Source of the DNA: an uncultured Lachnospiraceae bacterium
GTDB lineage: Bacteria; Bacillota; Clostridia; Lachnospirales; Lachnospiraceae
Length of the DNA: 35,436 nt
NCBI GenBank assembly: GCA_946623875.1
Contig: CAMORO010000020.1
Span: 1 to 35,436, forward strand
Direction of reading: 5' to 3'
Made by a program: the position numbers and the translations under genes. The notes beneath the pieces were generated by a model that saw only the letters and a program-made list of their open reading frames with translations, had not been told where the DNA came from and made no database searches. Position 1 is the stretch's first letter. Every line of letters begins with the position of its first letter. Below, one piece after another: positions 4,203 through 33,935 of this stretch.

Positions 4203-7200
4203 CTATTCCGTGATGATCTCCGGAACCATTGCCTTCCCAAGCTTCTCTCCAACATACTTCTGAATCTCCTCATGGTTTATTTCCTTTGAGGTTTTCAGCT
4301 TACATGTAACATAGAACAGATTGTTCTCACCGTACTGAAGTGAAGCCCGCGCGTCATCAATTCCCGGATAGGACATAAGTGTTTTTTCCAGTTCGAAAAG
4401 ATTTATAAATGATCTTCCAGCCAGAGTTTCCCTCATAACGGTCCTGCCGGCCTGATACAGGGCTTCAACCTTTTTATCCGGTGTGATTCTTGCTTCGATT
4501 CCCGTATCATACATGGTTCCCGGTGAATACAGGCTTTCTATCTTCTCGCCCCCGCCGTTAACCTTCTGATCCAATATATACAGCCTGCCCCAAGCACCGA
4601 ATGGCTTCTTGATACCGTATTCGTCCAGTATGTAGGGCTTAACCATAAGCTCTTCACTTCCGCCGGGGATAACTTCCTTGCCAAGGTATGCATTAAGCCT
4701 TGCCGCCGATATCTGAAAATGCTTCGGATAAAGCCTTACGGGAAGATGATCCTTAAGCTTTCTCACGGAGGTTTCCTCTTTCATTGCGATCAGGATATTT
4801 TCCATTACCTGAAGGAATACCTCGAGCATATCCTTGTCAAATCGGTTCTCCCAGTATCTCAGTTCATAGGTATAGCCTCTCTTTGCCTCATAGATCATCA
4901 GATGGAAAGGCAGGGAATCAAGCTGGATCTTTATTCCCGTTGCGGGTTCGCCTCCGATCTGAGGAATATCCAAAAGAGTACCCTGATACTGGATAAACAT
5001 TTCATCCGCATGCTGGCTTGACATATGCGTCTCCATTGTATGAAGGATCTGATCCGCATTTCTGTGAAGCATCTCCTCAACAGTCTCATGCGGAACCTTT
5101 TTGTAGCGGAAAACATATGTTGCGAAGAAGGAACCTGCGATCTGTACCCATCTTCCGTCTGTCCTTCCGTTGTGGATACTGGTGATCACTACATCATCAA
5201 GAGAACCAAACAGGCTGACTGTATAACTGAAAGCACTTAAAAACAGGGCATTTTCCGAAATACCATACATGCGGCAGAATCCCTGTACGTCCCCTTTGTT
5301 AAGCTCCGTAAACATTCCCTTGATCGAAGCATTGTGCGCCGTACCCAGATCATAGCTGTCCATCTTGGCGAGTATACTGCGCTTAACTTCGCTTCCCTTG
5401 AGAAGGTCAGTGAAGAAGGCGATGTCCTTATCCCTGAGTCCGGCCTCATCTCTTGCCATCTCGTCAAGAAGATACTCATAGAAGGTGTAATCCGACTTCT
5501 TTACCTCCTCCTTCATATACAGACGGTTGAGATCCTGCAGAAGGATATTCATGGTCATACCGTCACCGATTATATGTGCCACATCAAAGAAGAGGTATTT
5601 ATCCTCACCCACTTCATACAGTCCGATGTGATACAGGTTTTCACCCGGCATATATGTAAACGGTACCACCAGTTTCTTACGCTTATCCTCCCATTCGGTA
5701 TCCGACAGGGTAAGACGCTCGATCGTAACCTCTCTGTTATCGTCACGGAAATTATACAGCCTCTTGTCTTCTCCCGGCTCTATCCTGTCTCTTAAGATGG
5801 GATGTATATCAAACAGAGCACGGATGGCTTCCTCCATCCGGTCCATATCTATCTTGTTCCCGAGCCTGAAGAAAAACGGAAGGTTAGCCGTCGTATTCCC
5901 GCGCATTACATAGGCAAAATACATCTGAAGCCTCGTAAGAGGATATTTGTCACGCACTGTATGATCGACACTGCCGTTCTTTTGCTTCTCCTCCCATATA
6001 AGAGCCAGCTTCTCCACGGTGGAGTTCTCCATAAGTTCGGTCAATGTCACCGAGAAGCCCTGTGTTTCCTGGAAACCCGTAAGAAGCATGATGCTTCCGA
6101 AGGAATCAAGACCCGCCGTGTACAGATCCGTATCGATACCGAACTTCCTGTGTCCGAGAACCTGGGCGCACACTTCATATATCTTCTTCTGATCATCATT
6201 TTCGGGAAGGCGGAGACTCTTCTCCATTTCCTTTGAAGCTGCCTTCTCCTTAAAGAATGCATCCCTGATGATCTTCTTGGAAGTCGTTTTCATAAAAGGC
6301 TGTCTGCGGATACCCGTATACATGATACGCTTATAGGTCGGGAGCGACTTGTTGTGCTGTTTAACTATTTCCTCAACCTCCAGACCCACGTTTGATATAC
6401 CGTTTGCTTCCGCATATTTGAAATCAGGATAAACCTCACATTTTATCATGTCATCCTCACCGTAAACAAGGATATCGGCGATCAGCGGCTCCGTTTCAAA
6501 ACCTTCCTCTATCTCCTCCGGTGCCACATTCTCCCCGTTGCTTAAGATGATCAGGTTCTTAAGACGTCCCGTAAGATACAGGAAATTCTCTTCATCAAGA
6601 TATCCGATATCTCCGGTCTTAAGCCATCCGTCTTCCGTAAAGGTCTCGGCTGTGATCTCGGGATCGCCGTAGTATCCCTTCATGACAAAGGGCGAACGTA
6701 CCTGAACCTCATTGCCCTCCGAAATGCGTACTTCAACATGCTTTAAGACCTTTCCGGCAGATGCGATCTTGTCAAGACGGTCATATACAGGCTCAGATAT
6801 GATGGGTGCACACTCGCTCATACCGTAACCCTGTCCTATACGGACTCCGAGATCGGCATATTTTCTCGCAAGATCTGCCGACAATCCGCCGCCTCCGCAG
6901 ACTATACGTGAAATATTGCGTCCGTATACCATACGCAGAGCATCCGCCTCAGTAAGTCCGGGATCCGAAGCTGCCATAGCCGATATCTTATTGTACAGAG
7001 CCTTCGCGATCATTGGTACCATATGCATGACCACAGGCTCAAACATACGAAGATGCTTGCCAAGATATGTAAGCGGTCCGTTAATACAAAGTGTGGCTCC
7101 CTTGAGCATCATCTGGAAAACATCTGTATTTATACAGAAGGAATGATGTATGGGCAGAACGTTCAGACAGACAAGATGTATACCTTCATCGTCGATCTCA

Positions 7201-14213: not shown

Positions 14214-17200
14214 CTAACCCAGTACCTCTATCATACCATCATAGTCAAACCTGTCGGCTTTCTCAAGGACAAGATCGAATCTTTCCTTTTGAGATTCAGG
14301 TATGGCATAGTCTTCTATCTCCTTCAGTATGTCCTCAATCATGTCGCTGTCCATGTCTTCCGCCGCTGCCTTAAGCCCTTCATAGATACTCTCCATCAGG
14401 AATTCATCCGCAACCGGCTTTGAAGGGGCATCGTCCTTTGACTTATCATTATCGAATATCGGGGAAAGAGCCTCAAGATAACTCATATACTCATCCATCA
14501 CGAAAGCATGATTTTCCTTTATATACTGAATGTTATCACCCTTACCCGCCATTTCCAGCTTCTCCGCACTGTCTCCCAGTTCCATGGCTCCCACAAGCCT
14601 CGCCGAACTCTTAAGTGCATGTATCTTTATCGTATAATTCTCCCAGTCCCCTGATAAATAGCAGTTTTCAAGCTCCGTGTGCTTATCCTTTATGGAATCA
14701 TGGAATATCCGAAGGACTGCCCTGAAAGCCTGCTCTGATCCCGAATTCCTGATAGCGGTCTCTGTATCGATTCCCGCGATTTCGTTTAACGGAATTTCCT
14801 CTGAGACGCTTTCGCTGATGCCCGGTTCATCATACGATAACAACTGAGCGACATCTTCCATGCCGGCATCGGCAAGCTCCTCATCCGTGACATTCCCCTC
14901 AGCCTCTTCAACCGCTGTATCCTCATCCGCAGCCACATCTTCCAGATTCACATCGTCTATAAATGATGCTATGTTATATGACTTATTTGACTTAAGCAAA
15001 TACAGTATACCGAAGGCTCCCGGACCGCAGTTGGAAGTAATTGCGGCTGAAGCCTGCTGAAAGATCACATGCTTAAAATCGGCTGTCTTCCTGACCTCTT
15101 CCTCGATCCATCTGAGCACATCAGTACTCACACCGGCATATGTAATGAACAGAATATCCGTATCGGGTATTGTATCGGGCGGAAGCGCACTGTTTATGTA
15201 CTTGCGGTAGGCTCTTTTGGTCCTTCCGATCCATGTGCCGCCGATCCTCATCCTGTCATTCCTTATCCTTATGACCGGATGAATACTTAATGCTTCGGCT
15301 AATTTATGCAGTCTCATGCCCACAAGTCCCTTTTTTGCCATATACTCTGTGGTATTGATGATAAAGCTGCATCTGAGCCGTTTCTTAACCGTTTCAAGTT
15401 CGGCTGTTATTTCTTCAACCTGCTTCCCCTGCTGCACCAGCTTGTAAGCTATCAGCACCAGAATACCCGTAGCACTTGAGACACATTCCGAATTTATGAC
15501 CGTAACATTATCAAAAGATTTCGCCGCCTCGTATGCATTCCTGTAATCATTGCTCATACCTGAGGTGATGGCTATATGAATGAGATGATGTGTATTCTTT
15601 AAATTATCGGCGAAGAATTCAGTGTATTCCGCTTCATCGGGAGGCGAAGATACTGCTTCTTTGCCCGCGCTTATATGTTTGATCAGTTCGTTTGCATCCA
15701 TATGGATCCCGTCCCTGAATACACCACTTTCCGTCTTTACGGTACAAGGCATAATGGGGATATGAAGCTTTCTGATCACCGTATCGGGAAGATCGCACAT
15801 ACTCGAGGATGTAATGATGACAGAAAACTTGTGAGCGTATTTATCCGTTGTATGTATCTCTTCACCATCACCTGTCATGACGGATCTCAATATGATCTTC
15901 TCATCCGAAATATAACGTATGAGCATTTCCTCCATGGCTTCACCGGAAACGGGCTTTACAAGATATCCGTCGAAGCCTGCCTGATTGTACAATTCCCTGT
16001 TCCTGCTTCCCGCATTTGCGGTAAGAATAATAACGGGTGTATTTCTGTTCAGACCGCCGGTTTGATTTCTCAGAGCTTCAAGACATTCTATTCCATCCAT
16101 GCCGGGCATCAGATGATCCATGAAAATGGCATCATAATGGGCTCTGATACACATTTCCAGAGCTTCGTTCCCGCTCTTTGCCACATCGATCGCCATATCC
16201 GTATCTTCAAGCAGCCTCCGCTCCACCTCTAAATTCATTTCGTTATCATCTACGATAAGTATCCTGACTTCAGGGGCAAAGAAGCGGCTCTCGTACGCAT
16301 TTCTCTTCACCATCTGCTGATTGTGGATGTTGAGCTCACCCACCATTGTGCGGTCGGATACTTCCTGCTCTATCGTAAAAGTAAAGGTGGATCCTTCTCC
16401 GTATACACTGTTGACGGTAACGGTTCCGTTCATCAGTTCAATAAGCTGTTTAACTATACTGAGTCCGAGACCAGTCCCTTCGATATGACGGTTTTTGCCT
16501 TCGTCCACCCGTTTGAAAGCATCAAACAGATAAGGTATATCCTCCTTCTTTATTCCCATTCCGGTATCCGATACGGACACTATAAGCTCTATCTTATTAT
16601 CGCCGGTTTCCCTGCTCTCGACACGGAGGCCGACACGCCCCCTTACCGTATATTTAACGGCATTGTTAAGCAGATTTATGATGATCTGCTTAATACGTAC
16701 TTCATCTCCGTACAAAACGGTGGGAACCTCCGGATCAACGATCACCTCAAATCCCAGCCCCTTATCATTGGCCCGAAGCCACATCATATTTACGATCTCG
16801 GACAGCATATCGCCTATACGGTAATCAACGGGGACTATATCCATACTCCCGGCTTCTATCTTCGAGAAATCGAGTATGTCGTTGATAAGTGCAAGGAGCA
16901 TTTTCCCGGAACCCTGTATACCTGCGGCGTCCCTGATCACATCATCCGAAGCATACTGATCCCTCAGTATCAGTTCATTAAGCCCGAGAATTGAATTGAT
17001 CGGAGTCCTTATCTCATGGCTCATGCTTGAGAAGAACCTGTTCTGCGCGCGGTTAAGCTCTTCCACTCTTTCGGCTTCCGCCAGAGCCCGTTTATTTTCT
17101 TCCGCGAAGATCATCTTCTGATACATCAGCATTATAAAAATACAGATACCTACCAGAATGACCGATACCAGCGAATCCATAAAGCCCATTTTCATTGTGT

Positions 17201-17654
17201 GAGGGTATATCCATTCGGTATGCCTGTATGCTGACCAGTATTCCAGGGCAGCGATACCGGTAAGTATTGGCATCATGGCAATCCTTAATTTCCCGGTAAG
17301 GGACATGCCGACGAACATATATGCAAATAAGATCCAGTATATCCCGCCGCCCCTGATACCACCGCCGTAATAAAAGGTTATCGGCAGGATGATAAATACA
17401 AGAGCACACACTGTTATAAGTGACCCCAGAAAAATCCTCTTAAAATGGACGCTTAAGCAGACAATGACAGGTATACATATGGCAGAAACAATGAGAGTTA
17501 TTATCTCAACCATGCTTTCCCCGCCGATTATATCAAATATAAGAGCTATCAGCATCGAGGAGACACCTATGATCGAAAGCATGATATAGGAGCGTTCTTC
17601 GTAACTGCGTGTAAAGTCCGTAAGTCTTTCAAAAACCTTTTTTATCAGCTTCAT
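14214..17654 (-). CDS. Hybrid histidine kinase with internal DegV domain: TM-HisKA-HATPase-REC-DegV-Hpt
   Basis: A 1146-aa membrane kinase. Six or so membrane spans lie in 20-185. HisKA has MSHEIRTP with phospho-His H213. HATPase shows N-box NLLNNAVKYT (~328), DTGMGI (363-368) and GTGLGLSI (393-400). The receiver has D513 (FMDHLMP) and K567. Residues ~609-890 are a whole DegV (fatty-acid-binding) domain: TSSSMCDLP, ITSGMSNDY, VINSECVSS, KKGLVGM and GPGAFGI correspond to its conserved blocks. An acidic linker leads to an Hpt domain with H1012 (IHALKSSARLVG) and a helical tail. DegV/FakB proteins bind fatty acids, so the relay may respond to lipid. ATGA overlap with the kinase gene upstream; GGAGGG precedes ATG. 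Confidence 0.93.
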   Translation of the reverse strand: MKLIKKVFERLTDFTRSYEERSYIMLSIIGVSSMLIALIFDIIGGESMVEIITLIVSAICIPVIVCLSVHFKRIFLGSLITVCALVFIILPITFYYGGGIRGGGIYWILFAYMFVGMSLTGKLRIAMMPILTGIAALEYWSAYRHTEWIYPHTMKMGFMDSLVSVILVGICIFIMLMYQKMIFAEENKRALAEAERVEELNRAQNRFFSSMSHEIRTPINSILGLNELILRDQYASDDVIRDAAGIQGSGKMLLALINDILDFSKIEAGSMDIVPVDYRIGDMLSEIVNMMWLRANDKGLGFEVIVDPEVPTVLYGDEVRIKQIIINLLNNAVKYTVRGRVGLRVESRETGDNKIELIVSVSDTGMGIKKEDIPYLFDAFKRVDEGKNRHIEGTGLGLSIVKQLIELMNGTVTVNSVYGEGSTFTFTIEQEVSDRTMVGELNIHNQQMVKRNAYESRFFAPEVRILIVDDNEMNLEVERRLLEDTDMAIDVAKSGNEALEMCIRAHYDAIFMDHLMPGMDGIECLEALRNQTGGLNRNTPVIILTANAGSRNRELYNQAGFDGYLVKPVSGEAMEEMLIRYISDEKIILRSVMTGDGEEIHTTDKYAHKFSVIITSSSMCDLPDTVIRKLHIPIMPCTVKTESGVFRDGIHMDANELIKHISAGKEAVSSPPDEAEYTEFFADNLKNTHHLIHIAITSGMSNDYRNAYEAAKSFDNVTVINSECVSSATGILVLIAYKLVQQGKQVEEITAELETVKKRLRCSFIINTTEYMAKKGLVGMRLHKLAEALSIHPVIRIRNDRMRIGGTWIGRTKRAYRKYINSALPPDTIPDTDILFITYAGVSTDVLRWIEEEVRKTADFKHVIFQQASAAITSNCGPGAFGILYLLKSNKSYNIASFIDDVNLEDVAADEDTAVEEAEGNVTDEELADAGMEDVAQLLSYDEPGISESVSEEIPLNEIAGIDTETAIRNSGSEQAFRAVLRIFHDSIKDKHTELENCYLSGDWENYTIKIHALKSSARLVGAMELGDSAEKLEMAGKGDNIQYIKENHAFVMDEYMSYLEALSPIFDNDKSKDDAPSKPVADEFLMESIYEGLKAAAEDMDSDMIEDILKEIEDYAIPESQKERFDLVLEKADRFDYDGMIEVLG

Positions 17655-23476: not shown

Positions 23477-25579
23477 TCATTTGGCCATGGATATAAGTGT
23501 TTCACGATCCACTGCGGGACTGTACAGATATCCCTGATACAGCAGACATCCGATCTTTTCCAGAGTATCCTTCTGCTCTATAGTTTCGACATATTCCGCA
23601 AGTACCTTAAAGTCAAGGGATTGGGAAAGATATACAATGGAGTTGATGATCTCCTTGGTACGGTCATTGCCAAGCAGTGACTTGGTAAGATTTCCGTCAA
23701 GCTTCACTATATCGAACTGGTTATGCTGCAGATATTGAAGGGATGTATGTCCCATACTGAAATCATCAAGCGCAAAGGAGTAACCATAGGATCTTATTTC
23801 CTTGATAAGATTTCCGGTCTCCTCCGATGTTACCAGTTCTGTTTCTTCCGTGATCTCGATACATATATTTCCGGGCTTTAAGCTGTAACGCCCGGCGAGT
23901 GACCTGATAAAGTCGATAAATCTCTTATCATACAGCGTTGTAACGGTTACGTTCACACTCAGCTTAAAGGAATCTCCGAAAACCTCCCTGAAGATGGCGG
24001 AATCCCTTACGGATTTCTCTATGATATAAGTCTCCAGGCTGTACAGGCTTCCGCTTTCCTTTGCAAGACGTACTACCAGCGGCGGATATATGATACCGTA
24101 CCGTTCATGATTCCACCGAAGAAGAGCTTCCGCTCCTATACAGTGACCCTTATTGTCAAACTGAGGCTGATACCTGATAAGCAACGGACTAAGGATACTG
24201 CCATCCTTCATATCATCCATATCCGGCTTCGATGCGGAAAGGGACACATCAAGATCGGCCGCAAGAAGCTTCGCCAGACGTCCTGCATTTCCTTCGCATT
24301 CCGTAAGCATTACCTCTTCGGCGTTTTTCTCTGCTTTTTTCATTATTCCGACAAGCTCATTCATCGCATCGGAAGATGCATCCAGCGATTTCTTTTCATA
24401 CAGGATTACAAAGGGCGAATAACAGGCAACCGATATCAGTATATTCAAAAGCTGCACGAGCACCACACCAACGGAGCCCGTAGCAATATAACCGCTCATA
24501 AGAGCCGGCGTAGTCCATGTGACTGTGGATGTAACCTGACCGATAACCCCCATCCTCGTCAGAAGATATGCATTAGAATAGCACAGTATGGGTGACAGTA
24601 TGAACGGGATCATAAGCAGCGGATTTAAGATAACGGGATATCCAAGAACCATCAGTTCACTTATATTAAACAATCCCGGCAACACAGCCATGTTCAAAAG
24701 CTTCCTGGATGAGCTGCGCTTTCCGAAGATCATAAGCGATATAAGCAGTCCGATGACACAGCCGGTACCGCCCATATTGACAAATATATCAATAAAACTC
24801 TTGGAAACGATCTGGCCGGGAATGATATCCATAAACATCTCCTCCACAACCCGGTCAAGAACCTTGTTCCCGTGGATGCCGAAGCACCACATAAAACTGG
24901 TCAGAAATACCAGCAGCAGCCCGCTCAGATATGAACGCTGCATCTTCATGAAAATACCGTCCATCACCTTAGTGAACAGATGCTGAAAGCTTTTGACATT
25001 AAAACAGATGGAGATCAGATAACTGGCAACGGTAAAACACAGAACAACGGCAAGAAACGGTACCATCACATGAATTGCCGTATTGAACACCGAATCCGCC
25101 CCGTCCGCAAATACCTTCTTTCTTGTCTTGAACAGTGTCTCGAATTTGAGAAACAGTGCCGAACCTGCGATGCCTGCAATAAGCGCACTGAAGATGCCCT
25201 GACCTCCCAGGAGTGAAATGTCAATTCTTACGGAAAAGAAGAAACCGACAAGGATAAAATAAGCTGTCAGACTGCCCATAAGACTTCCGAAGCGGAACAT
25301 AAGACGCTGCCCTTCCTCCCTGATACTCAAATAACACTGGTTGAGTGCAATGGTTAAATAGACAGCCAGTAATCCCGTCGTCGTGGACTGGATCGTATTA
25401 AAAAGGCTTCTGATTGCTCCGCCCATAAATGAACCCAGAAAGTTCTGGTATTCCTTTACCGGAAATTCATTCAAAAGAACCGCTATACTTCCTATGAAAA
25501 GAATCGGGATCACCATCTCAAGACCGGTCTTTATAATATGTGCTATATTATGTATCCGTCTAAAACTGAATTTCCTCAT
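23477..25579 (-). CDS. PTS EIIC-like membrane domain fused to an EAL phosphodiesterase
   Basis: A 700-aa protein. Residues ~1-390 are a ten-span membrane domain in the style of the sugar PTS EIIC permease (IIGAL-like hydrophobic repeats, WCFGIHGNKV, NMGGTGCVIGL, NISELMVLGYPVILNP). Residues ~455-700 are an EAL domain with EALLRW (484), N in SVNVT, E in IEITE, DDF at 605-607, K in VKLD, E in AEYVET and Q in YQGYLY, so all metal and catalytic positions are kept and c-di-GMP breakdown is expected. EIIA and EIIB domains are absent, so the EIIC part may sense rather than transport sugar. It is the first gene of the signalling operon, with its promoter in the shared palindrome. Confidence 0.92.
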   Translation of the reverse strand: MRKFSFRRIHNIAHIIKTGLEMVIPILFIGSIAVLLNEFPVKEYQNFLGSFMGGAIRSLFNTIQSTTTGLLAVYLTIALNQCYLSIREEGQRLMFRFGSLMGSLTAYFILVGFFFSVRIDISLLGGQGIFSALIAGIAGSALFLKFETLFKTRKKVFADGADSVFNTAIHVMVPFLAVVLCFTVASYLISICFNVKSFQHLFTKVMDGIFMKMQRSYLSGLLLVFLTSFMWCFGIHGNKVLDRVVEEMFMDIIPGQIVSKSFIDIFVNMGGTGCVIGLLISLMIFGKRSSSRKLLNMAVLPGLFNISELMVLGYPVILNPLLMIPFILSPILCYSNAYLLTRMGVIGQVTSTVTWTTPALMSGYIATGSVGVVLVQLLNILISVACYSPFVILYEKKSLDASSDAMNELVGIMKKAEKNAEEVMLTECEGNAGRLAKLLAADLDVSLSASKPDMDDMKDGSILSPLLIRYQPQFDNKGHCIGAEALLRWNHERYGIIYPPLVVRLAKESGSLYSLETYIIEKSVRDSAIFREVFGDSFKLSVNVTVTTLYDKRFIDFIRSLAGRYSLKPGNICIEITEETELVTSEETGNLIKEIRSYGYSFALDDFSMGHTSLQYLQHNQFDIVKLDGNLTKSLLGNDRTKEIINSIVYLSQSLDFKVLAEYVETIEQKDTLEKIGCLLYQGYLYSPAVDRETLISMAK

Positions 25580-25659: not shown

Positions 25660-25695
25660 TAATGTGTGGAACTTATACAAAGGAGAAACAGTTAT

Positions 25696-26424
25696 ATGGC
25701 AAACGAGCGGACAAAGATGTATCAGGTATCAACCCTTCAGGCACTGGCCTTAGGTTATACAAGAGGCGTAATAACGGTCAGGGAGCTGATGGAACACGGA
25801 GAGACGGGTCTCGGAACGTTTGAAGACGTTAACGGTGAAATGATAGCAATAGACGGTAAATGCTACCGTGCCACCGAGAACGGTGCTGTTGAAGAAGCCG
25901 GAGACGACAGGGGCGTCCCCTTTTCGGCGGTCGGTTATATGGATAAATGCCGGGAATTCGAAATATCCGGAGACTACGATATGGCAAGCCTTAAGGATGA
26001 ATTAAACAACCGGATAGAGGAAGATTTCGGTCTTAACAGCATGCATATCATTCAGATAAACGGTATGTTTGAAAAGGTATATGCACGCTCGGAAGCACCG
26101 TACAGATCGCATCATGTCACGCTTAAGTCAATGCTCGAGAAAACCCAGACCTCCTTTGAATTCGATCAGGTATGCGGAAGCATCGTCGGAGTATATTTCC
26201 CTGATTACATGGACGGGATCAATGCATCCGGCTGGCACCTTCATTTCGTAAATGAAGACCGCACAATGGGCGGACACGTGTATGATCTTAACATGAAGAA
26301 AGGGCTTGTGCGTCTTGCCAAGAGAAGCAGTATTGAGATACAGCTTCCAAAAGACGCGGCATTTGACACCTATGCACTTAAAGATGCATCTAAAGATGAG
26401 ATCAAGCAGGTGGAGCAGGGCTGA
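25696..26424 (+). CDS. budA: Alpha-acetolactate decarboxylase
   Basis: A 242-aa cytosolic enzyme converting alpha-acetolactate to acetoin, a step of the butanediol/acetoin route. Family features are visible: STLQALALG, GLGTFEDVNGEMI with the AIDG loop, VTGSI-like GSIVGVYFPDYM, and zinc ligands H181 and H183 (GWHLHF) and H194 (GGHV). ATG at 25696 is chosen because AGGAGA lies 9 bases upstream; an in-frame ATG at 25666 has none. It is the only complete plus-strand gene here. It faces the c-di-GMP phosphodiesterase across a shared palindromic promoter and ends 31 bp from the converging exporter gene. No terminator is visible between them. Confidence 0.95.
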   Translation: MANERTKMYQVSTLQALALGYTRGVITVRELMEHGETGLGTFEDVNGEMIAIDGKCYRATENGAVEEAGDDRGVPFSAVGYMDKCREFEISGDYDMASLKDELNNRIEEDFGLNSMHIIQINGMFEKVYARSEAPYRSHHVTLKSMLEKTQTSFEFDQVCGSIVGVYFPDYMDGINASGWHLHFVNEDRTMGGHVYDLNMKKGLVRLAKRSSIEIQLPKDAAFDTYALKDASKDEIKQVEQG

Positions 26425-26455: not shown

Positions 26456-28627
26456 TCATTTAAGCTGCTGTTTCCTTACCAGTTCGGCGAATTTACCCTC
26501 TTTCCTCATAAGCTCTTCATAACTGCCTTCTTCCGCTATCACACCATCCTCAAGCATGATTATCCTGTCAAAGTTCTCTACCGTTGACAGCCGGTGCGCC
26601 ACCATTACCACGGTCACCTTCATCTTCCGGATGTTTTCCATTACCGCTGTCTGAGTCATATTGTCAAGAGCCGATGTTGCCTCATCAAGTATAATCACCC
26701 TGGGATTATCCATGAATGCTCTTGCCAGAAGTATACGCTGTCTCTGCCCTCCCGAAAGCCCGCTGCTGACCGACTCGGATATCTCCGTATCAAGCTTCAG
26801 CGGAAGTCCCCTGACATAATCTCCGATAGCGGCATTGTCAAGTGCCTCCCATATCCTATCCTCATCATAGCTTCCTACGGAACCGAACATCACATTGTCC
26901 GCAATGGTTCCCGGAAACACCCTGCTGAACTGAAATACCGAACCGACACGTCTTCTTAAGGATCGTAAATTGAGTGAATTAAGAGGTTTTCCATCATAAC
27001 TGACCTCTCCCTCCTCAGGCCTCTCAATACCTAGCAGTATCTTTAGCAGTGTGGTCTTACCGCATCCGCTCTCTCCAACGATCGCCACTCTCTCCCCGCG
27101 CCTTATATCAAGTGTAACACCTTTCAGACATCCCCTCGGATCATCATTATAGGAAAACCGGATATTTTCTGCCCTTATATCCCCGTTCAGTCTTTTTACA
27201 TATTCCAGCGCTTCACTCTCTTCATTATCCGCTTCAAAGACCGGCCTTACATTCTCAATGAGCATATTCATAAGAAATATATTCTGCATTATATCTGTAA
27301 GAGAAGACACCACAACAATGATAAGGCTGTAGGATTCCATAAAAGTCATATATCTGGCATTGTCGACACCACTGTTGTACATGGAGAAGCCCAGCAGTCC
27401 TATAGTCGTTGCAATGCTGATGGAAGAAAGGATCTCTGTGTTGTACTTAAGGAAAAAGGGCTGCTGATAAGTCAGTGCCAGCTTTCTACGGTACAGATCC
27501 GCCCACTTTGAATAAACAGCCTTTTCGGAACCCATGCCTTTGATCTTCTGTATTCCGCGTATCACAGAGTACATAAATCCACTGTTTTCCATATCGATCC
27601 GAAGTATGCCCGCCTCGTTGTATGCATAGCTTAACGCCCCCAGTATTGCGGCAATTATCTTCAAAAGGAGAAACACAACAGCAGGAACAAAGAGTTCCGG
27701 GGCGATACCGTTCATCTGATACAGGTATACGATCGAAAAACTCAGATCGAGAAGAACATCCATGACTATCTGCACAATAATATCCGACAGTCTTCCGCAG
27801 TTGGTGATCCTTTTGGACAGCTTTCCAGATGAAGTAGAGTGGAAAAATTCCTGCGGAAGATGCAGTATCTTGGCCATTACAGCCTCCTGTATTCTAGCCG
27901 ATACCCTTATCTTTGTCCGGGCGAGCATCACACTCTTTACAAGTGACAGCACTCTCCTTATAAGGCTTACAGTCAGGAATATGATCAACGCAAGCCTGAA
28001 TCCTGCGGCAGACCCATGTCCCTTAATGTACACGTTATAGATCCATTTACTGACAACAGGAAGTATGTATCCGAAGCCGGTAACAAGCCCTGTAGCGATA
28101 ACAAGGTTCAAAACATCATAAAGAGTCAGTGTATGAAGAACATTGTAAATAAATGTGTGCAGCAGAGTACTGCGTTCTTCAAGAGGTCTGCTCAGTGTAT
28201 AGCAGACGGGCTGAAGTGAATCTATATAATGTTTCGTTGCCATTCCTTCGCTCGAATCGAAAGGACAGTAGAAACGGTAGCCCCGGATGGAGGGCATAAG
28301 AACAACTGCTTTCCCGTCTTCCCTGAACGCAAGCAGGTTTTCCGAGCCGGAACGGCTCATTTCTGCCACCGATATCCTTTCCTCATACATCATTCCGAGA
28401 GGATCGAGCATTGTCTCAAACAGTGATTCCAGAGTGTCCTGTCTTGGTATCCTCGAAACTGAAACACCGAATCTCTCAAGCATATAGATCAGCGCAGTCT
28501 GAACATCTTCAATATCCTCTTCCACCCGTAGCATCTTACGATTAAAAACAAGAGCATCATCCGCATAGCGCTCAAGCTTTATATTATTTTCTTCTCTTTC
28601 CCTTATGTTATTTGTATACAGACCCAT
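26456..28627 (-). CDS. NHLM-type bacteriocin export ABC transporter, second subunit
   Basis: A 723-aa ABC transporter with membrane and ATPase parts in one chain. Residues 1-150 form a soluble N-terminal domain lacking a peptidase signature but matching the layout of the NHLM system partner protein (EDDxxTALxYMLERFG..., then AVVLMPSIRGYRFYCP). Five or six spans lie at ~160-455. The ATPase has Walker A GESGCGKTT (518), signature LSGGQ (624), Walker B VIILDEATS (D648 end) and H-loop H678, all intact. GGAGA precedes ATG. It sits 11 bp after its partner and probably forms a heterodimer with it to export leader-bearing peptides. Confidence 0.9.
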   Translation of the reverse strand: MGLYTNNIREREENNIKLERYADDALVFNRKMLRVEEDIEDVQTALIYMLERFGVSVSRIPRQDTLESLFETMLDPLGMMYEERISVAEMSRSGSENLLAFREDGKAVVLMPSIRGYRFYCPFDSSEGMATKHYIDSLQPVCYTLSRPLEERSTLLHTFIYNVLHTLTLYDVLNLVIATGLVTGFGYILPVVSKWIYNVYIKGHGSAAGFRLALIIFLTVSLIRRVLSLVKSVMLARTKIRVSARIQEAVMAKILHLPQEFFHSTSSGKLSKRITNCGRLSDIIVQIVMDVLLDLSFSIVYLYQMNGIAPELFVPAVVFLLLKIIAAILGALSYAYNEAGILRIDMENSGFMYSVIRGIQKIKGMGSEKAVYSKWADLYRRKLALTYQQPFFLKYNTEILSSISIATTIGLLGFSMYNSGVDNARYMTFMESYSLIIVVVSSLTDIMQNIFLMNMLIENVRPVFEADNEESEALEYVKRLNGDIRAENIRFSYNDDPRGCLKGVTLDIRRGERVAIVGESGCGKTTLLKILLGIERPEEGEVSYDGKPLNSLNLRSLRRRVGSVFQFSRVFPGTIADNVMFGSVGSYDEDRIWEALDNAAIGDYVRGLPLKLDTEISESVSSGLSGGQRQRILLARAFMDNPRVIILDEATSALDNMTQTAVMENIRKMKVTVVMVAHRLSTVENFDRIIMLEDGVIAEEGSYEELMRKEGKFAELVRKQQLK

Positions 28628-28638
28628 GGTATTCTCCG

Positions 28639-30777
28639 CTATGATTCTATCAGCTCGCGGTACAGCCCGCCCTGAGCATACAGTTCCTTATGTGTCCCCT
28701 CCTGCACTATCTTTCCCTTGTCCATGACATATATCCGGTCGCAGTCTACTATCGTCGACAGTCTGTGGGCTACAATGATACATGTGGTTCCCTTGTCGCG
28801 GATCGATCTGATCACCCTGTCTTCGGTCAGGGCATCAAGGGCAGATGTGAATTCATCAAGGAAAAGTAATGTCGGCTCGTGTGCCAGCGCTCTTGCAAGT
28901 TCAAGCCTCTGCAGCTCACCGCCCGAATAATTACGTCCGTTCTCCTCTATCATCGCACCGTAATCCTTCCTGTTACGCACTATTCTCTCATGGATCTGTG
29001 CATCCCGTGCGGCCAGTATTACTTCATAATTCTCGATGGTTGTATCCCACATACGTATGTTATTATATACCGAATCCTCGAACATCATTGTGTCCTGATC
29101 CACAGTCATGACGGATGAGCGAAAGATAACATCCGGTATTTCATCCCGATGTCTTCCGGAATACAGTATCTCTCCCGACTCAGCCGAATAGAGATCCGCA
29201 AGTATTTTGAGCATTGTGCTCTTGCCGCTTCCCGTCTTCCCGACTATGGCTACCATCTGTCCGGGCTTCACTTCCATACTTACATCATCCACCGCAAGAC
29301 GGTCTGCCCGGTTGTAACGATAACTGACATGACTTGCCACAAGATGTCCTTCAAGTTTATCCGCAGTCTCATACTCGCTTTCCGGCAGAGGAATGGGCTG
29401 TCTGCCATCCCTGTTCATGATATCATTGACTCTCTCTATATTTGTCCGCATGGTCTGCATGGTATTCAAAGATGTCATGCAGTTGTTCATGGACGAGAGC
29501 ATGTTATTCAGAATACCCTGAAACAGTGCCATTGAACCCAGCGTGAAATTACCCTTCACGACAAAATAAGCTCCGATGAACAGCTGTATACCCTGCAGTA
29601 CGGATCCCTGCATCCCCGAAACGAAATTGAGTACCGCGTTTATCGACTGAGTCCTCAGTTTGCCTTCATTTGCCTGTACCATAGACTCCCGCCACAGATT
29701 GTAGAAGGATCTTTCCGCTCCTGACGATTTAATGGTATCTATCATGCTCATTCCGTTCAGTATCGTCGTATTCAGCATATTTCCGGAGGTAGTCATGCTT
29801 CTCGATGCTATAGCGTTCTTATCCTGGATATACAGAGTCGCAGCCAGGCTTATAAATATTGCGGCAAAACAGGCGAGGGCTATCGGCAGGTTGTATTTCA
29901 TCAGTGTCAACAGATATACTACCGTCATGAATGCATCAATGGTACGCGGAACAAGGGATCGCATGATGGAATTATCAAGACTTATGTTATTTTCTATTCT
30001 GGCTATCAGCTCTCCCGCACTGTACTGCTCAAAGAACTTAAGAGGCTGGTCAAATATCTTCTTAAACAGGCGGCTGCCGGATACTGCCGAAATATTCCGG
30101 CTGGATCTGTTGATCAGTCCCGTCTTTGCCAGACTGAAAAGAAAATACGCAGCAAGAGCCAATATATATATCAGAATAACCAGATACCCTGCGCTCATGT
30201 CCTGAATACTATTCGACTTCAAATATGTATCCAATATATCCTTCTGGATATTTACCATACCGATGTTTAAGATAATACATACCAGCGTAAGTACTACCAG
30301 CACTGTCATCGGCCTGCGCAGATGCTCCATTCTCTCTCTGATAAGGGAATAGAGGGATTCTCTTTTGCCATCTGCCACGAAATTCTGTCCTTTTTTAAGA
30401 GTGATAACGGTACCGTTGTAGAGCTGTGTGAACTTCTCCATCGTCATTCTGATCTCGCCTCTGGCGGGATCTGCAATGGAAATAATGTCCTTATGTATCG
30501 AAGTGACCACACACCAGTAATGCTTTTTCCAGGATACGAGAAGCGGAAGCTTTCTGCTCTTCAGTTCTTCAACGGAAATGGTTTCTGTCTCTGCTTCCAA
30601 TCCGTACCTCCCGGCTGCATCCGACATCTGCTCAGGGTCGGAACCGTTGCGGGATGACACGCATACTTCACGTAATTCTTCAATAGGGACGAATTTTTTG
30701 TAATATCCGAGCATCATACCAAGAGCAGCCGCGCCATTCTCGCCCGGTCTCATCTGGATCACTATCGGAATCCTCAT
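28639..30777 (-). CDS. NHLM-type bacteriocin export ABC transporter with C39-like domain lacking catalytic Cys
   Basis: A 712-aa exporter. Residues 1-~135 are a peptidase C39-like domain: Q8 (VIQM), then GENGAAALGMMLGYY where the family has ECGAA, so the nucleophile Cys is Asn at 14; His (H86 in KKHYWCVV) and Asp (D103 in ADPARG) are kept. Without Cys it should bind the leader but not cut it. Six membrane spans follow (~150-440). The ATPase has Walker A GKTGSGKST (513), signature YSGGE (617), Walker B LLFLDEFTS and H-loop His (671). Its ATG overlaps the RT stop (ATGA at 30774-30777), so the two are translationally coupled. Confidence 0.9.
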   Translation of the reverse strand: MRIPIVIQMRPGENGAAALGMMLGYYKKFVPIEELREVCVSSRNGSDPEQMSDAAGRYGLEAETETISVEELKSRKLPLLVSWKKHYWCVVTSIHKDIISIADPARGEIRMTMEKFTQLYNGTVITLKKGQNFVADGKRESLYSLIRERMEHLRRPMTVLVVLTLVCIILNIGMVNIQKDILDTYLKSNSIQDMSAGYLVILIYILALAAYFLFSLAKTGLINRSSRNISAVSGSRLFKKIFDQPLKFFEQYSAGELIARIENNISLDNSIMRSLVPRTIDAFMTVVYLLTLMKYNLPIALACFAAIFISLAATLYIQDKNAIASRSMTTSGNMLNTTILNGMSMIDTIKSSGAERSFYNLWRESMVQANEGKLRTQSINAVLNFVSGMQGSVLQGIQLFIGAYFVVKGNFTLGSMALFQGILNNMLSSMNNCMTSLNTMQTMRTNIERVNDIMNRDGRQPIPLPESEYETADKLEGHLVASHVSYRYNRADRLAVDDVSMEVKPGQMVAIVGKTGSGKSTMLKILADLYSAESGEILYSGRHRDEIPDVIFRSSVMTVDQDTMMFEDSVYNNIRMWDTTIENYEVILAARDAQIHERIVRNRKDYGAMIEENGRNYSGGELQRLELARALAHEPTLLFLDEFTSALDALTEDRVIRSIRDKGTTCIIVAHRLSTIVDCDRIYVMDKGKIVQEGTHKELYAQGGLYRELIES

Positions 30778-32075
30778 TGCACCGCATCTCCTCCGTTTTC
30801 TTCATCTGTTGTTTCTTTACATATATCATCCTGCTGTTTCAACGTTAATTCTCTCGGTATTTCTTCTATCCTGTCCTGATGATGGTAGTAATAGACAAGG
30901 GTCTTGTATCCCAGCTCAGACAGCTTTTCATATGAAATCGAATTTTTACGCCTCTTCATTGAGCCATAGAGCACATATCTGATACTGTCCCGGATATAGT
31001 TATCTATTTCCTTCAGGCAGTCCTCCTCCGTAATTATGGGAAATACCCATTTGGACCATGTTAACCGGTTGCTGTTTATTTCGGTTCCAAAAAAATAACG
31101 GTTGAATCTTATAATAAGACCGTGAGCTGCCTCATCCTTTGTAAGCCAGCCTCTGTTACAACCGATCAGCGCTTTGTCAGCATACCCGCGTATCCTTCGC
31201 TTTATCTTCTTAATACTGTGCCCGGACAGCCTTATATTGCCTTCACTAAGCTCCATTCCCAACAGATCAAAGGACTCTCCGGGCATCAGCACAGAGGTTT
31301 TCTCCTTATTCACGGTAAGCTTCAGATGGTCAAGGATTTCGTAGAACTTCTCCTCATATTTCCTGATCTCTTCATGGCTGTAAGAGCATATCAGAATATC
31401 ATCCGAGTATCTTGCATATAATGATGCACGTGGGGCAAAATATTCATCCATTTCATGCAGGTAAAGATTATTGAGGAAATTCCCTATAGGAACACCCCCC
31501 ATGCCTCCGGGACAGCGATCTATGATCTGTCCGTTAAAGTCTATGACTTTATTACGTGTAAGAAGCCATTTAAGAAAAGAGAAAAATTCGGGATCATCCG
31601 GCATAAACACATCTTCAAGCATCGGAATAACCAGTTCGGGAACGATAGACTCACCATATTTTGATACATCTGTCTTAAGAACATACATATTCTGTACGTT
31701 TCTCTCCCGGCTGATCTCCTTCAGCAGATCCCCTCCCGTCTTATCAGACCTGAACGAAAACAGACGATCCGAATAAATACTTTCCATACCCCGCATTGCA
31801 AAAGCAATAAGTTTCATCAGATAACCTTCTGTGCCCGGAAAAAAGTAAACAGCCCTTTTCTTTTTATTAAAATTTTTCGGGATAAGACGATATTGAGGAT
31901 AGTCAAGAAAGTAGTCACCCATCTTAAGCCGTTCTATATCTTTCGCACATTCATCGCTCATTATATATTCATTTATTTCGGTCATCTGTTCTTCAGTATA
32001 TTTTCTTCTGTTTTTACTGTAAGCAACAAACTCTTCCCTGACCTTCATTAGTCCGGCCTTTTCCAATACTTTCAC
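30774..32075 (-). CDS. Reverse transcriptase of an unassigned (DGR-like) type, coupled to exporter genes
   Basis: A 433-aa reverse transcriptase. RT blocks in order: NKKKRAVYFFP (~70-80, fingers), MESIYSDRLFSFR (97-109), motif A YVLKTDVSKYGES with D136, GVPIGNFLNNLYLHEMD (194-210), and active site YSDD (223-226), then LKLTVNKEKT and LLGMELSEGN (motifs D, E). All three catalytic Asp are present. The PIGN block is like that of diversity-generating-retroelement RTs, but the usual TSQ is FLN. No group II maturase X/HNH domain is present. The C-terminal ~150 residues are basic and helical. The start is GTG with GGGAG 7 bases upstream. It follows a structured RNA and overlaps the exporter by ATGA. 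Role in peptide export, diversification or defence is unknown. Confidence 0.9.
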   Translation of the reverse strand: MKVLEKAGLMKVREEFVAYSKNRRKYTEEQMTEINEYIMSDECAKDIERLKMGDYFLDYPQYRLIPKNFNKKKRAVYFFPGTEGYLMKLIAFAMRGMESIYSDRLFSFRSDKTGGDLLKEISRERNVQNMYVLKTDVSKYGESIVPELVIPMLEDVFMPDDPEFFSFLKWLLTRNKVIDFNGQIIDRCPGGMGGVPIGNFLNNLYLHEMDEYFAPRASLYARYSDDILICSYSHEEIRKYEEKFYEILDHLKLTVNKEKTSVLMPGESFDLLGMELSEGNIRLSGHSIKKIKRRIRGYADKALIGCNRGWLTKDEAAHGLIIRFNRYFFGTEINSNRLTWSKWVFPIITEEDCLKEIDNYIRDSIRYVLYGSMKRRKNSISYEKLSELGYKTLVYYYHHQDRIEEIPRELTLKQQDDICKETTDEENGGDAVQ

Positions 32076-32123
32076 TGTAATTCTCCCGTTTTACTTATCT
32101 GTCATCCAGATTATTGCACATTT

Positions 32124-32141
32124 TGTAACTATTCAGAACAG
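32124..32141 (+). repeat. Dispersed 18-nt intergenic element, copy 2
   Basis: TGTAACTATTCAGAACAG, identical to the minus-strand sequence at 3627-3644. It lies between the structured RNA and the RT start, about 50 bases upstream of the GTG. Confidence 0.6.
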
Positions 32142-32198
32142 CACATATATTTATATAAAAACATAGCTTTTGTCCTTTGTATGATGTAAAATATACTC

Positions 32199-32326
32199 AA
32201 TAAGGAAGGTACACTTAAATGTGTGTTTCAGAAAGATCGGACAATCTGCTTTATCACGCGTCTGAAACCGCTGCAGGCTAAGCCGGTCTCGTGCTACGCT
32301 ACAAAATACCCTTCCTTATCCTGAAT
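32199..32326 (-). ncRNA. Structured RNA upstream of the reverse transcriptase
   Basis: On the minus strand a closed, branched fold is visible. Stem P1: 32310-32319 pairs with 32200-32209 (ten contiguous pairs, ATAAGGAAGG/CCTTCCTTAT), continued after a bulged base. An inner 8-bp stem: 32261-32268 with 32225-32232 (GTTTCAGA/TCTGAAAC), with a small AGAT/ATCT hairpin in its loop. A 4-bp hairpin: 32221-32224 with 32211-32214. The last three elements touch without unpaired bases, as in coaxially stacked RNAs. The 5' part, 32269-32307, contains GGCTTAGCC and is less structured. An extended -10 promoter lies just upstream. It could be the RT template or primer, a leader-type control element, or a retron-like RNA; it matches no RNA family I can name. 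Confidence 0.65.
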
Positions 32327-32332
32327 AATTAA

Positions 32333-32341
32333 ATTGTATCA
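32333..32341 (-). promoter_or_regulatory. Extended -10 promoter for the structured RNA / RT operon
   Basis: On the minus strand TGATACAAT (TGn plus TACAAT at 32333-32338) lies so that transcription would start near 32326, right at the 5' base of the P1 stem. The -35 region is poor, as is usual for extended -10 promoters. Confidence 0.5.
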
Positions 32342-32357
32342 CTTCTGAACAATTTAG

Positions 32358-32414
32358 AACAGGGGACGGTTCATCGTTTCGGTAAAATCCGAAGGCGATA
32401 AACCGTCCCCTGTT
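32358..32414. repeat. Long REP-like hairpin between araA and the RT operon
   Basis: Perfect 14-bp arms AACAGGGGACGGTT (32358-32371) and its complement (32401-32414), extended inward by ATCG/CGAT and TTCGG/CCGAA, form a 57-nt hairpin. No T-run follows on either strand, so it is not a standard terminator, although it could still stop or protect araA mRNA. The GGGGACGGTT core is familiar from palindromic elements spread through Clostridia genomes, sometimes linked to REP-associated transposases. Confidence 0.7.
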
Positions 32415-32438
32415 ACATTAAATATCTAAAAACTATTA

Positions 32439-33935
32439 TTATCCGTAGAATACCTCGCCGAGCTTAAGATCCTTCTTAAATGCGGGGATTGTTGTGTTCT
32501 TATCTATTATCACTGCCTCTATTCCGGACATCTCAGCCCAGTCGGCCATCTGATCCACGGTAAGATCATATGAGAATGCGGTATGATGAGCACCTCCGGC
32601 AAGTATCCATGCTTCCGCACCCGTATACAGATCGGGATAAGGTGTCCAGAAATTGGTCGCTACCGGAAGCTCGGGCATGGGCTTCTCTGTCTTCTTGCAT
32701 TCAACCTCATTAAGAATGAGACGGAACCTGTTACCAAGATCGATAAGTGATGCCGCAACACCCCTTCCTTCCTTGGAAGTAAATACAAGCCTTGCGGGAT
32801 CTTCCCTGTCGCCCATAGAGAGCGGCTTAACCCTGATACTTATGGGACCGTCGGCTATTGAAGGGCAGATCTCAAGCATGTGAGCTTCCAATATTCCTTC
32901 CTTGCCCCTTACAAGGTTGTAGGTGTAATCTTCCATCATTGAAGTACCCTTGGCATCCTTCATTCCCTCGGTCATTATCTTCATAAGACGGACCATGGCT
33001 GCAACCTTCCAGTCACCCTCGGCGCCAAAGCCGTAACCCTTCTCCATAAGCCTCTGGATGGCAAGTCCCGGAAGCTGCTTAAGTGCACCCAGATCACCAA
33101 AGTGAGTTACTATCGCCTGATAATTCTTCTCCTCAAGGAATTTCTCAAATCCGAGCTCAATCCTTGCCTGTACTGCAACATGCTTCTTAAACTCCCCGGG
33201 ATCCCTTCCGTCAAGAATGATGTTGTATTTCTCATAATATTCATCGAGCAGTTCATTAACCTCAGCATCCGATACATCATTAACGCTCTGTGCTATCTCA
33301 TTGACCGGATATGCATCCACTTCCCAGCCGAACTTGATCTGTGCCTCTACCTTGTCGCCCTCGGTAACTGCAACGTTCCTCATGTTATCAGCCACTCTCA
33401 TGACCCTGATATGGCTTGATTCCATGATACCTACAGCTGTTCTCATCCATGAAGCGATCCTCTGTCTTACCTCATCATCCTTCCAGTATCCGACCACAAC
33501 CTTTCGTTCTATCCTCATCCTGCTCACTATATGTCCGTACTCCCTGTCACCGTGAGCCGCCTGATTCTCGTTCATGAAATCCATATCGATCGAATCATAG
33601 GGAATTTCCTCATTGTACTGGGTATGAAGGTGCATAAGAGGCTTCCTGTATTCCTGAAGCCCAAGTATCCATGACTTTGCCGGCGAAAAAGTGTGCATCC
33701 ATGTGATAACACCGGCACATGACTCGTCAGCGTTTGCTTCATTAAATGTCTGTCTGATAAGCTGATTGGTGATAAGAACGGGCTTCCACACTACCTCGTA
33801 GGGAAGTATCCCCGATCTGTTGAGCTCGTCCACAATCTCCTTCGAATGAGCCGCAACATGCCTTAATACCTCTTCTCCGTACAGATCCTGAGAACCTGTG
33901 CAGAACCAAAACTTGTACTCTTTTTTCTTGATCAT
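32439..33935 (-). CDS. araA: L-arabinose isomerase
   Basis: A 498-aa cytosolic enzyme converting L-arabinose to L-ribulose, the usual length for the family. Characteristic stretches are WFCTGSQDLYG at the start, GVITWMHTFSPAKSWI, the metal/catalytic residues in FGAEGDWK and MMEDYTY, EAHMLEICPS, and GGAHHTAFS. ATG at 33935 is chosen because GGAGGG precedes it; an in-frame upstream start at 33974 would put extra residues before the conserved KKKEYKFWF and would lie next to the promoter. araB and araD are not in the window. Regulated by the AraR-type operator in its promoter. Confidence 0.97.
   Translation of the reverse strand: MIKKKEYKFWFCTGSQDLYGEEVLRHVAAHSKEIVDELNRSGILPYEVVWKPVLITNQLIRQTFNEANADESCAGVITWMHTFSPAKSWILGLQEYRKPLMHLHTQYNEEIPYDSIDMDFMNENQAAHGDREYGHIVSRMRIERKVVVGYWKDDEVRQRIASWMRTAVGIMESSHIRVMRVADNMRNVAVTEGDKVEAQIKFGWEVDAYPVNEIAQSVNDVSDAEVNELLDEYYEKYNIILDGRDPGEFKKHVAVQARIELGFEKFLEEKNYQAIVTHFGDLGALKQLPGLAIQRLMEKGYGFGAEGDWKVAAMVRLMKIMTEGMKDAKGTSMMEDYTYNLVRGKEGILEAHMLEICPSIADGPISIRVKPLSMGDREDPARLVFTSKEGRGVAASLIDLGNRFRLILNEVECKKTEKPMPELPVATNFWTPYPDLYTGAEAWILAGGAHHTAFSYDLTVDQMADWAEMSGIEAVIIDKNTTIPAFKKDLKLGEVFYG

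Follow-up and report, generated by a model that had tools for sequence, protein, structure and literature searches.

What does a reverse transcriptase (RT) do beside a pair of peptide exporters? The question is raised by a contig of an uncultured Lachnospiraceae bacterium (assembly GCA_946623875.1, contig CAMORO010000020.1, 35,436 nt; "the window" below is this whole stretch), in which an RT gene, a compact structured RNA and two ABC exporter genes lie side by side. The initial annotation saw a single coupled operon, and suggested either that DNA made by the RT controls or diversifies an exported peptide, or that a defence RT has joined an export operon. We find it nearly certain that RT, RNA and exporter form a three-part system. 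For the mechanism as a whole we favour, by analogy with known systems, a reading in which an RT-RNA particle would act with the ABC exporter as its membrane effector, probably in phage defence, and give it a probability of roughly 0.4. The argument is carried by the linkage itself, the topology of the RNA, the co-inheritance of RT and RNA and their exchange against the exporter, and the loss of both the steric gate of the RT and the catalytic residues of the exporter peptidase, all of which are observed. The features concerned are the following, where TMD and NBD stand for transmembrane and nucleotide-binding domain and ncRNA for noncoding RNA:

30774-32075, minus strand: UG26-like RT, 433 aa, GTG start (PADLOC RT_UG26, RVT_1, AlphaFold2, Foldseek)
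31653-31655, minus strand: codon of Gly141 at the steric-gate position of RT motif A (Asp136+5), which is Phe in classic UG26 (RT alignment)
31398-31403, minus strand: codons of the catalytic Asp225-Asp226 of the RT (RYSDD; RT alignment)
28639-30777, minus strand: ABC1, NHLM-like C39-TMD-NBD exporter half with an inactive-looking peptidase domain (TIGR03796; Peptidase_C39, ABC_membrane, ABC_tran)
30736-30738, minus strand: codon of ABC1 Asn14, which replaces the catalytic Cys of C39 (alignment)
26456-28627, minus strand: ABC2, second exporter half with intact NBD motifs (TIGR03797, motif reading)
32201-32318, plus strand: pseudoknotted ncRNA, predicted to be a separate transcript divergent from the RT (P1/P2/P3 topology, covariation in six relatives)
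32225-32268, plus strand: P2 helix of the ncRNA, 32225-32232 with 32261-32268 (helix reading)
32235-32288, plus strand: P3 helix of the ncRNA, crossing P2, 32235-32240 with 32283-32288 and 32246-32249 with 32273-32276 (helix reading)
32170-32197, plus strand: sigma-70-like promoter TTGTCC-16-TATACT ahead of the ncRNA (promoter scan)

The RT, ABC1 and ABC2 are thus all on the minus strand in the window. As first reported, the RT stop and the ABC1 start overlap by 4 bp in an ATGA (30774-30777), and 11 bp separate ABC1 from ABC2.

The linkage recurs throughout the exporter subfamily: the RT adjoins the exporter in 11/11 loci from at least three genera (L003 counted), with the RNA present in the 10 loci not truncated by a contig end. 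A survey of this kind had been proposed in the initial annotation, together with the view that the grouping would be a local accident if close RT relatives mostly lacked the exporters and the RNA. Such a lack is found just among distant RTs, the classic UG26 enzymes, which have an RNA and none of these exporters (0/49 loci), and not among close relatives, such as the 94%-identical RT in a goat-rumen Lachnospiraceae bin (L002). The RT search covered 397 genomes of the family, 36 of which have a match of at least 140 bits (38 places, one being the window), and the neighbourhoods compared comprise 37 places at that threshold, one of 93 bits and 14 from an order-wide search with the UG26 model. 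The 49 classic loci, several of them cut by contig ends, are those left after removal of three that carry this exporter. A protein similar to the exporter occurs in 9/49 of them, reaching at most 179 bits and 27% identity (L047) or 159 bits and 37% (L108). In many classic loci we also note a protein of 129-212 aa just before the RNA and RT, a candidate partner that falls into two clusters of 14 and 8 loci (for example L106:8672-9205 and L043:11839-12360); three of these proteins were tested and have no Pfam match.

Starting from the exporter gives the same linkage. An ABC1 search of the family at 1e-150 finds 4/397 genomes (G000, G193, G293 and G307) with the RT adjacent in all four, and four further genomes (G1072, G1092, G1099 and G1097) were found via ABC1 alone, the RT then being present in every one. 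When three genera (37, 6 and 4 genomes) are searched with ABC1, the RT-linked proteins stand at 46-100% identity and at least 688 bits, and the canonical NHLM paralogues at 32-39% and at most 520 bits, with the addition of a broken fragment of 52% (G1097). The exporter is found in 5/37 genomes of the window's genus, all five with the RT, and two other genomes of this genus (G1073 and G1083) have an RT without exporter that is classic by both RNA and motif. In G1060 contig ends truncate both the RT and ABC2. Around the six canonical NHLM loci (L162-L167), which include one from the genome of the window itself, the 9-20 kb covered contain no RT. No RT match was found on plasmids at 1e-20, and no confirmed relative on viral contigs, for which the query reaches close relatives only.

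Gene order varies around this constant association. The window, L002, L048 and L158 have RT-ABC1-ABC2, L003 and L160 have RT-RNA-ABC1-ABC2, L161 has ABC1-ABC2-two RNAs-RT, and in L035, L036 and L159 the exporters are divergent from the RT with the RNA in between. The L003 contig carries a second RT of the clade, L004, some 6 kb away from the exporters and accompanied by an RNA of its own. Because the linkage outlasts these rearrangements, we infer that function, rather than frozen synteny, holds the genes together.

What kind of RT is it? The top PADLOC profile is RT_UG26 (334.4 bits, E = 1.9e-100, residues 4-400 of 433), followed by RT_UG27 (E = 6.1e-27) and RT_UG17 (E = 7e-25), and the protein carries Pfam RVT_1. 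These profile matches favour UG26 over a retron or a diversity-generating retroelement. Complete classic UG26 members score 463-579 bits against the same profile in the order-wide search, compared with 334 for the window RT. The AlphaFold2 model is a confident RT fold (pLDDT 86.4, pTM 0.81). Foldseek places the thermostable group II RT 6ar1 at the top (E = 1.3e-14), with the UG enzymes behind it, first DRT9 (9vma, 5e-14; 9nlv, 8e-14) and then DRT2 (2e-10); sequence-profile matches are to 9ioa, DRT9 by its title (E = 4.4e-22), and to Drt2 (5e-14). Our RT tree holds 54 sequences: 42 classic rows, the 11 exporter-clade RTs and L116, leaving out the partial L005 and L115 as well as L050, L054, L064, L070 and L109, whose RT was missed by the open reading frame (ORF) picker and whose motif A was examined separately. 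The 42 classic rows form a split with 100/100 support, and the exporter RTs lie outside it. So does L116, a long-branch outlier (branch 2.47) that falls with them: if it is counted the exporter-linked label needs two changes on the tree, and a single origin is possible. We also observe, at L035:6656-10471 (plus strand), a single 1271-aa frame in which a radical SAM protein is followed by the RT (Radical_SAM_N2 + Radical_SAM + RVT_1), either a fusion or an assembly artefact.

The catalytic residues of the window RT had been described as intact, and this is correct for Asp136 of motif A and Asp225/226 of motif C, but the aromatic steric gate is absent, its place being taken by Gly141. The difference separates the clades. 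All three catalytic Asp are kept in 11/11 exporter-clade RTs, where the motif-A residue Asp+5 is Gly in five, Val in four and Ala in two, and aromatic in none; the same residue is Phe in 48/48 readable classic RTs (41/41 aligned rows and 7/7 further, with L072 masked and L116 left out). Alignments to PDB entries likewise place a Phe opposite Gly141 in a group II RT, Cas6-RT-Cas1 and 8bgj. In the RT of Moloney murine leukaemia virus (MMLV) it is residue F155 that keeps ribonucleotides out, and passages of PMC8857657 report that F155V increases the binding and incorporation of NTPs; a natural polymerase of another family, DinB2, has Leu at the gate position (as stated in part of PMC4176160). Because they lack the steric-gate aromatic, the exporter-clade RTs are predicted to discriminate weakly between sugars, that is, against ribonucleotides.

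At the other end of the protein both clades keep a C-terminal LV..YY motif: Tyr390 and Tyr397 are present in 11/11 and 10/11 of the exporter RTs, and in 35/42 and 34/42 of the classic rows. Priming by DRT9 uses C-terminal tyrosines (parts of PMC12483538), and our guess is that the exporter-clade RTs might be primed in the same way.

The exporters had been annotated as NHLM peptide exporters. The closest NCBIfam models are indeed NHLM ABC1 and ABC2, but both matches fall under the curated cut-offs (ABC1 at 605.7 bits against 853.3 for TIGR03796, ABC2 at 479.1 against 709.4 for TIGR03797) and the ABC1 peptidase is without its catalytic residues. The position of the C39 Cys is Asn in 10/10 readable RT-linked ABC1 proteins (nine and L003), compared with a retained Cys in 29/29 readable canonical ones, one broken piece being unread. 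The position of the C39 His is Tyr in 7/7 aligned RT-linked proteins, with a His one position before it in the window and in L003, and the C39 Asp is kept. Cys and His have catalytic roles in C39, so that the domain looks inactive and should no longer cut leaders. The ATPase motifs of ABC1 and ABC2 are intact, and the RT-linked ABC1 proteins form a clade of their own in the exporter tree (100/100), apart from canonical NHLM. Because such an exporter would be unable to trim a leader, an NHLP precursor is not needed beside it. The absence of a precursor gene from the operon, which had seemed puzzling, would thus be explained by the loss of the C39 residues and not by a hidden peptide gene. Small ORFs of 18-110 aa within 2.5 kb, compared over nine loci by a search that did not include leader models, contain none common to the loci at large; the matches are limited to L048 against L158 and one antisense pair between the window and L036. 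The window's own genome has a second, canonical NHLM exporter pair with the C39 Cys intact (L162:8323-12714, contig C3).

Is the RNA a genuine partner of the RT? In classic UG26 loci it lies just ahead of the RT and reaches the gathering threshold of RT-5 (RF03026) in 5/5 tested (L106, L047, L043, L044 and L057). The RT-5 family was reportedly named in a survey of candidate RNAs for the RT genes adjoining them; our literature search turned up no paper on RT-5 among the matches listed. A covariance model of our own, R1, built from 18 classic loci, matches 45/49 classic loci with E ≤ 1.5e-4, the 18 among them, and in 45/45 the match is on the RT strand and upstream, the median distance to the called start of the RT being 42 nt (range -259 to 593). 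Of the remaining loci L059 is matched weakly and L046, L115 and L116 not at all. The architecture is a closing stem, P1, with two interleaved helices, P2 and P3, which make a pseudoknot. In the 18 classic sequences 94.8% of cells are paired and 20/28 pairs are changed on both sides (P2: 100% paired, 4/6 pairs doubly changed), and 0/500 shuffles reach the observed value on each of five measures.

The RNAs of the exporter loci have a similar size (116-124 nt) and the same topology. P1 and P2 are tabulated in 11/11, and P2 keeps pairing while its sequence changes: GUUUCAGA/UCUGAAAC in the window, GUUUUCAA/UUGAAAAC in L035, GUUCUCA/UGAGAAC in L036, GCCCGUA/UACGGGC in L158 and CGCCUGCA/UGCAGGCG in L161. 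P3 is tabulated in most; the helix table omits one L048 helix and the P3 of L161, which was found by eye and whose strings were confirmed to pair, and mislocates one L158 string. For the six window-type RNAs, with a mean column identity of 74% and a good alignment of the window RNA to L003 and L004, 96.9% of cells are paired, 12/27 pairs are doubly changed and four of the five measures beat all 500 shuffles. The compact structured RNA first read from the letters upstream of the RT is thus borne out by covariation in relatives and by folding energies: computed for the minus strand and without pseudoknots, z is -3.1 for a 266-nt stretch and -2.7 for a 125-nt element, and relatives give -3.4 (L035) and -2.4 (L036), or 0.1 (L003) and -0.1 (L004) where the segment was cut inside the closing stem. 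Two loci have two copies, in tandem at L161:4790-4912 and 4961-5082, and about 1.4 kb apart at L048:3631-3777 and 5083-5205, flanking a 390-aa gene without Pfam match; the window's own genome has no further copy.

The two RNA models barely reach these sequences. Rfam at gathering has no match in the window, and L158 is matched weakly by both models (R1 32.6 bits, E = 0.03; RT-5 26.6 bits against a gathering value of 45.7, E = 0.002). Relaxed Rfam searches of the window left chance-looking traces only (snoRNA, CRISPR-repeat and AfaR, E ≥ 1.8). A weak mir-299 match, which also looks like chance, falls on a separate feature, a strong inverted repeat at 32361-32411 (AACAGGGGACGGTTTATCG...CGATGAACCGTCCCCTGTT) between the RNA and araA.

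RT and RNA travel together. The exporters of the window and of L048/L158 are sisters with 67-71% identity, while their RTs are 27-28% identical and their RNA types differ. L003 and L160 repeat the pattern, with sister exporters (50% and 48%) and RTs 28% identical, with the qualification that long branches may attract. In the loci examined, the type of RT corresponds to the type of RNA. Because sister exporters carry divergent RTs and RNA types, and RT and RNA types match, the RT-RNA pair behaves as a cassette that has been exchanged at least once against a conserved exporter. An exporter kept while RT and RNA are exchanged is, we infer, a pattern commoner in conflict systems.

How might the three parts work together? 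The components would be an RT of a clade beside classic UG26, a pseudoknotted ncRNA of about 118 nt made as its own transcript, and a heterodimeric ABC exporter whose C39 domain is not expected to cleave leaders. The RT and the RNA would form a particle in which the RNA is both scaffold and template, as in DRT2, DRT9 and DRT10, with priming perhaps from the conserved C-terminal tyrosines. A polymerase without a steric gate would accept NTPs, and its product could consist of RNA or of a mixture of RNA and DNA. Sensing or product-making would fall to the RT-RNA pair, which changes fast, and the conserved exporter would serve at the membrane as effector or outlet, comparable to the SLATT protein of DRT10; the most likely setting is phage defence. 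Of the two initial suggestions, that RT-made DNA controls or diversifies an exported peptide finds no support here; the idea of a defence RT fits better, in the form of a membrane effector joined to what may be a defence-type RT-RNA module. A bolder version, which we think rather unlikely, is that the RT without its sugar gate is an RNA-templated RNA or mixed RNA/DNA polymerase acting on its own pseudoknotted RNA and coupled physically or functionally to the dedicated exporter, such that a repetitive or protein-linked product gates the transporter or is moved by it, which would constitute a new class of immune or signalling machine.

Several points weigh against the proposed mechanism. Among the matches listed in our literature search, papers that name UG26 give no function for it; its mention in cold-seep viruses, for example, comes without one (in the text seen of PMC10504277). 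The loss of the steric gate could stem from other causes, such as altered priming. With E allowed up to 10, RT-5 still finds nothing in the window, and it does not match L160 or L036; the best full-length R1 score on the window RNA is 0.3 bits, on the minus strand; kinship of the window RNA to the classic RNA would thus be a matter of common topology and of L158, not of model score. Further pair types in the six window-type RNAs are no better than in shuffles (149/500). The RT domain of G193 ends a 1271-aa frame, about 2.9 kb from ABC1. The system is also rare, ABC1 being found in 4/397 genomes of the family and in 4/392 of the order (two candidates scored per listed genome), all four in the same family, and since L036/L159 and window/L002 are near copies the independent examples number fewer than 11.

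The alternative that survives best dispenses with phages: the RT-RNA pair would regulate or signal to an exporter whose cargo is a leaderless peptide encoded elsewhere and secreted in competition or communication. We regard this as possible though improbable. Intact ATPase motifs suit an active exporter of this kind, and a substrate left uncleaved could pass by type I export despite a dead C39-like domain, as in HlyB. The lack of a small ORF common to the loci is in keeping with an unlinked substrate, and the canonical NHLM exporter elsewhere in the genome also speaks for it, but no substrate was found, and the conserved exporter with exchanged RT and RNA would be more usual in a conflict system.

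Less probable again, and in our view quite unlikely, is a scheme like that of DRT2, in which the RNA would be copied into peptide-encoding repeats and the peptide secreted or inserted into the membrane by the exporter. A stop-free sense frame does cross the whole element in 9/11 RNAs, the window included, but stop-free frames of about 40 codons are common by chance and the length is a multiple of three in just 3/11, so a Neo-like open frame is not supported. Size is a further obstacle: the whole RNAs measure 116-124 nt, compared with about 120 nt for the DRT2 template alone (in the portions seen of PMC12039810 and PMC12483538).

A third possibility is that the RNA belongs to the other strand and precedes the RT operon as its leader or as a riboswitch. 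The strand calls for argument, because an RNA built of inverted repeats appears structured on both. We consider it highly probable that the transcript is the plus strand, 32201-32318, divergent from the RT and not an operon leader, and correspondingly very improbable that it is a minus-strand leader. The element also folds on the minus strand and sits upstream of the RT in the window, as the initial annotation had it, but relatives carry the RNA downstream of the RT or of ABC2, or on the other strand, and place it as a unit of its own. The promoter assigned to the operon fares no better: a scan of 32040-32450 gave no promoter on the minus strand and three plus-strand matches, a weak result on its own given the 1.4 (sd 1.2) expected in shuffles, and it is one of these, TTGTCC-16-TATACT, that directly precedes the RNA. 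In the plus sense 10/11 RNAs have a -10-like box (4/6 or better) 6-8 nt ahead of P1, with TAAAAT in the window adjoining TATACT; in the opposite sense any such box within 18 nt is found in 4/11. The models point the same way in relatives. In the sense of the window plus strand R1 finds L158 at 32.6 bits, L161 at 24 and 21 bits (E = 0.8 and 3) and L160 at 22 bits, and its scores for L003 and L036 are higher in this sense than in the other (7.7 against 1.8 bits and 9.1 against 0.3, respectively); the RT-5 match in L158 is in plus sense too. On the window itself R1 is uninformative, its one full-length trace being the 0.3 bits on the minus strand. The hand-read helices in plus sense contain nine G-U and no A-C pairs, an argument that is partly selection, as 2/5 G-U pairs in window-type RNAs lie inside a helix. 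A T-rich tail after P1 favours plus in L003, L004, L036, L048, L158, L160 and both L161 copies, ties in L035, and leans to minus in the window and L002 (3/8 against 4/8). For the RT strand, an RNAalifold consensus gave 14/29 doubly changed pairs but a covariation term of just 0.12, with L035 and L036 misaligned, and that strand was dropped after L158, L160 and L161 matched R1 in the opposite sense. Finally, that exporter and RT are neighbours by chance, as the classic UG26 RTs without these exporters might suggest, is, barring misleading sampling, practically negligible when the RT accompanies 11/11 exporters despite altered gene order and is missing from all six canonical loci.

The system we propose, with an RT-RNA particle and a membrane effector, has partial counterparts among known ones. 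It resembles UG26/RT-5 in its best family match, in the P1/P2/P3 topology of the RNA and in the C-terminal LV..YY, and differs in its separate clade and lower score, the missing steric-gate Phe, the added exporters, and an RNA that varies in place and strand and that RT-5 misses or barely detects. DRT10, which combines a UG17 RT, an ncRNA and a SLATT membrane protein in phage defence (parts of PMC12632851), also unites an RT, a structured ncRNA and a membrane protein, and RT_UG17 is the third-best PADLOC profile of the window RT; here, however, the membrane partner is an ABC exporter pair, and the defensive role and the template are putative. Neither UG26 nor ABC transporter occurs in the main text of PMC12632851. 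DRT9 (UG28) and DRT2 share the pairing of an RT with a structured ncRNA and are matched by profile and by Foldseek, but are without exporters. NHLM/NHLP ABC1/ABC2 provide the best NCBIfam match and the same two-gene layout, from which the window exporters depart in their scores, the Cys-to-Asn and His-to-Tyr changes and their separate clade. The term ABC transporter does not occur in the text seen of the RT neighbourhood survey PMC8934634, and among the matches listed in our search, which excluded subscription papers, supplements and preprints outside PMC, there was no description of a UG RT tied to an NHLM or ABC exporter.

Other genes of the window are recorded here as separate observations. 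An acetolactate decarboxylase gene (25666-26424, plus strand) is convergent with ABC2, and a relative lies near the RT in L036/L159, with 63% identity between the window and L159. At 23477-25579 (minus strand) a PTS EIIC domain is fused to an EAL c-di-GMP phosphodiesterase domain, and at 14214-17654 (minus strand) there is a hybrid histidine kinase (HisKA, HATPase, receiver, Hpt) with a DegV domain in between.

Recent papers on UG RTs report unexpected chemistries, among them homopolymer DNA, tandem repeats and de novo genes. The lineage described here has oddities of its own: its RT lacks the steric gate, the peptidase of the partner exporter looks dead, and RT and RNA form a cassette that can be exchanged. 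Should its RT indeed make RNA, the F155V enzyme of MMLV, a laboratory product, would have a counterpart in nature. The RT-5 RNA of Rfam is linked to UG26 RTs, and both gain a concrete hypothesis, in which the RNA would be the template.

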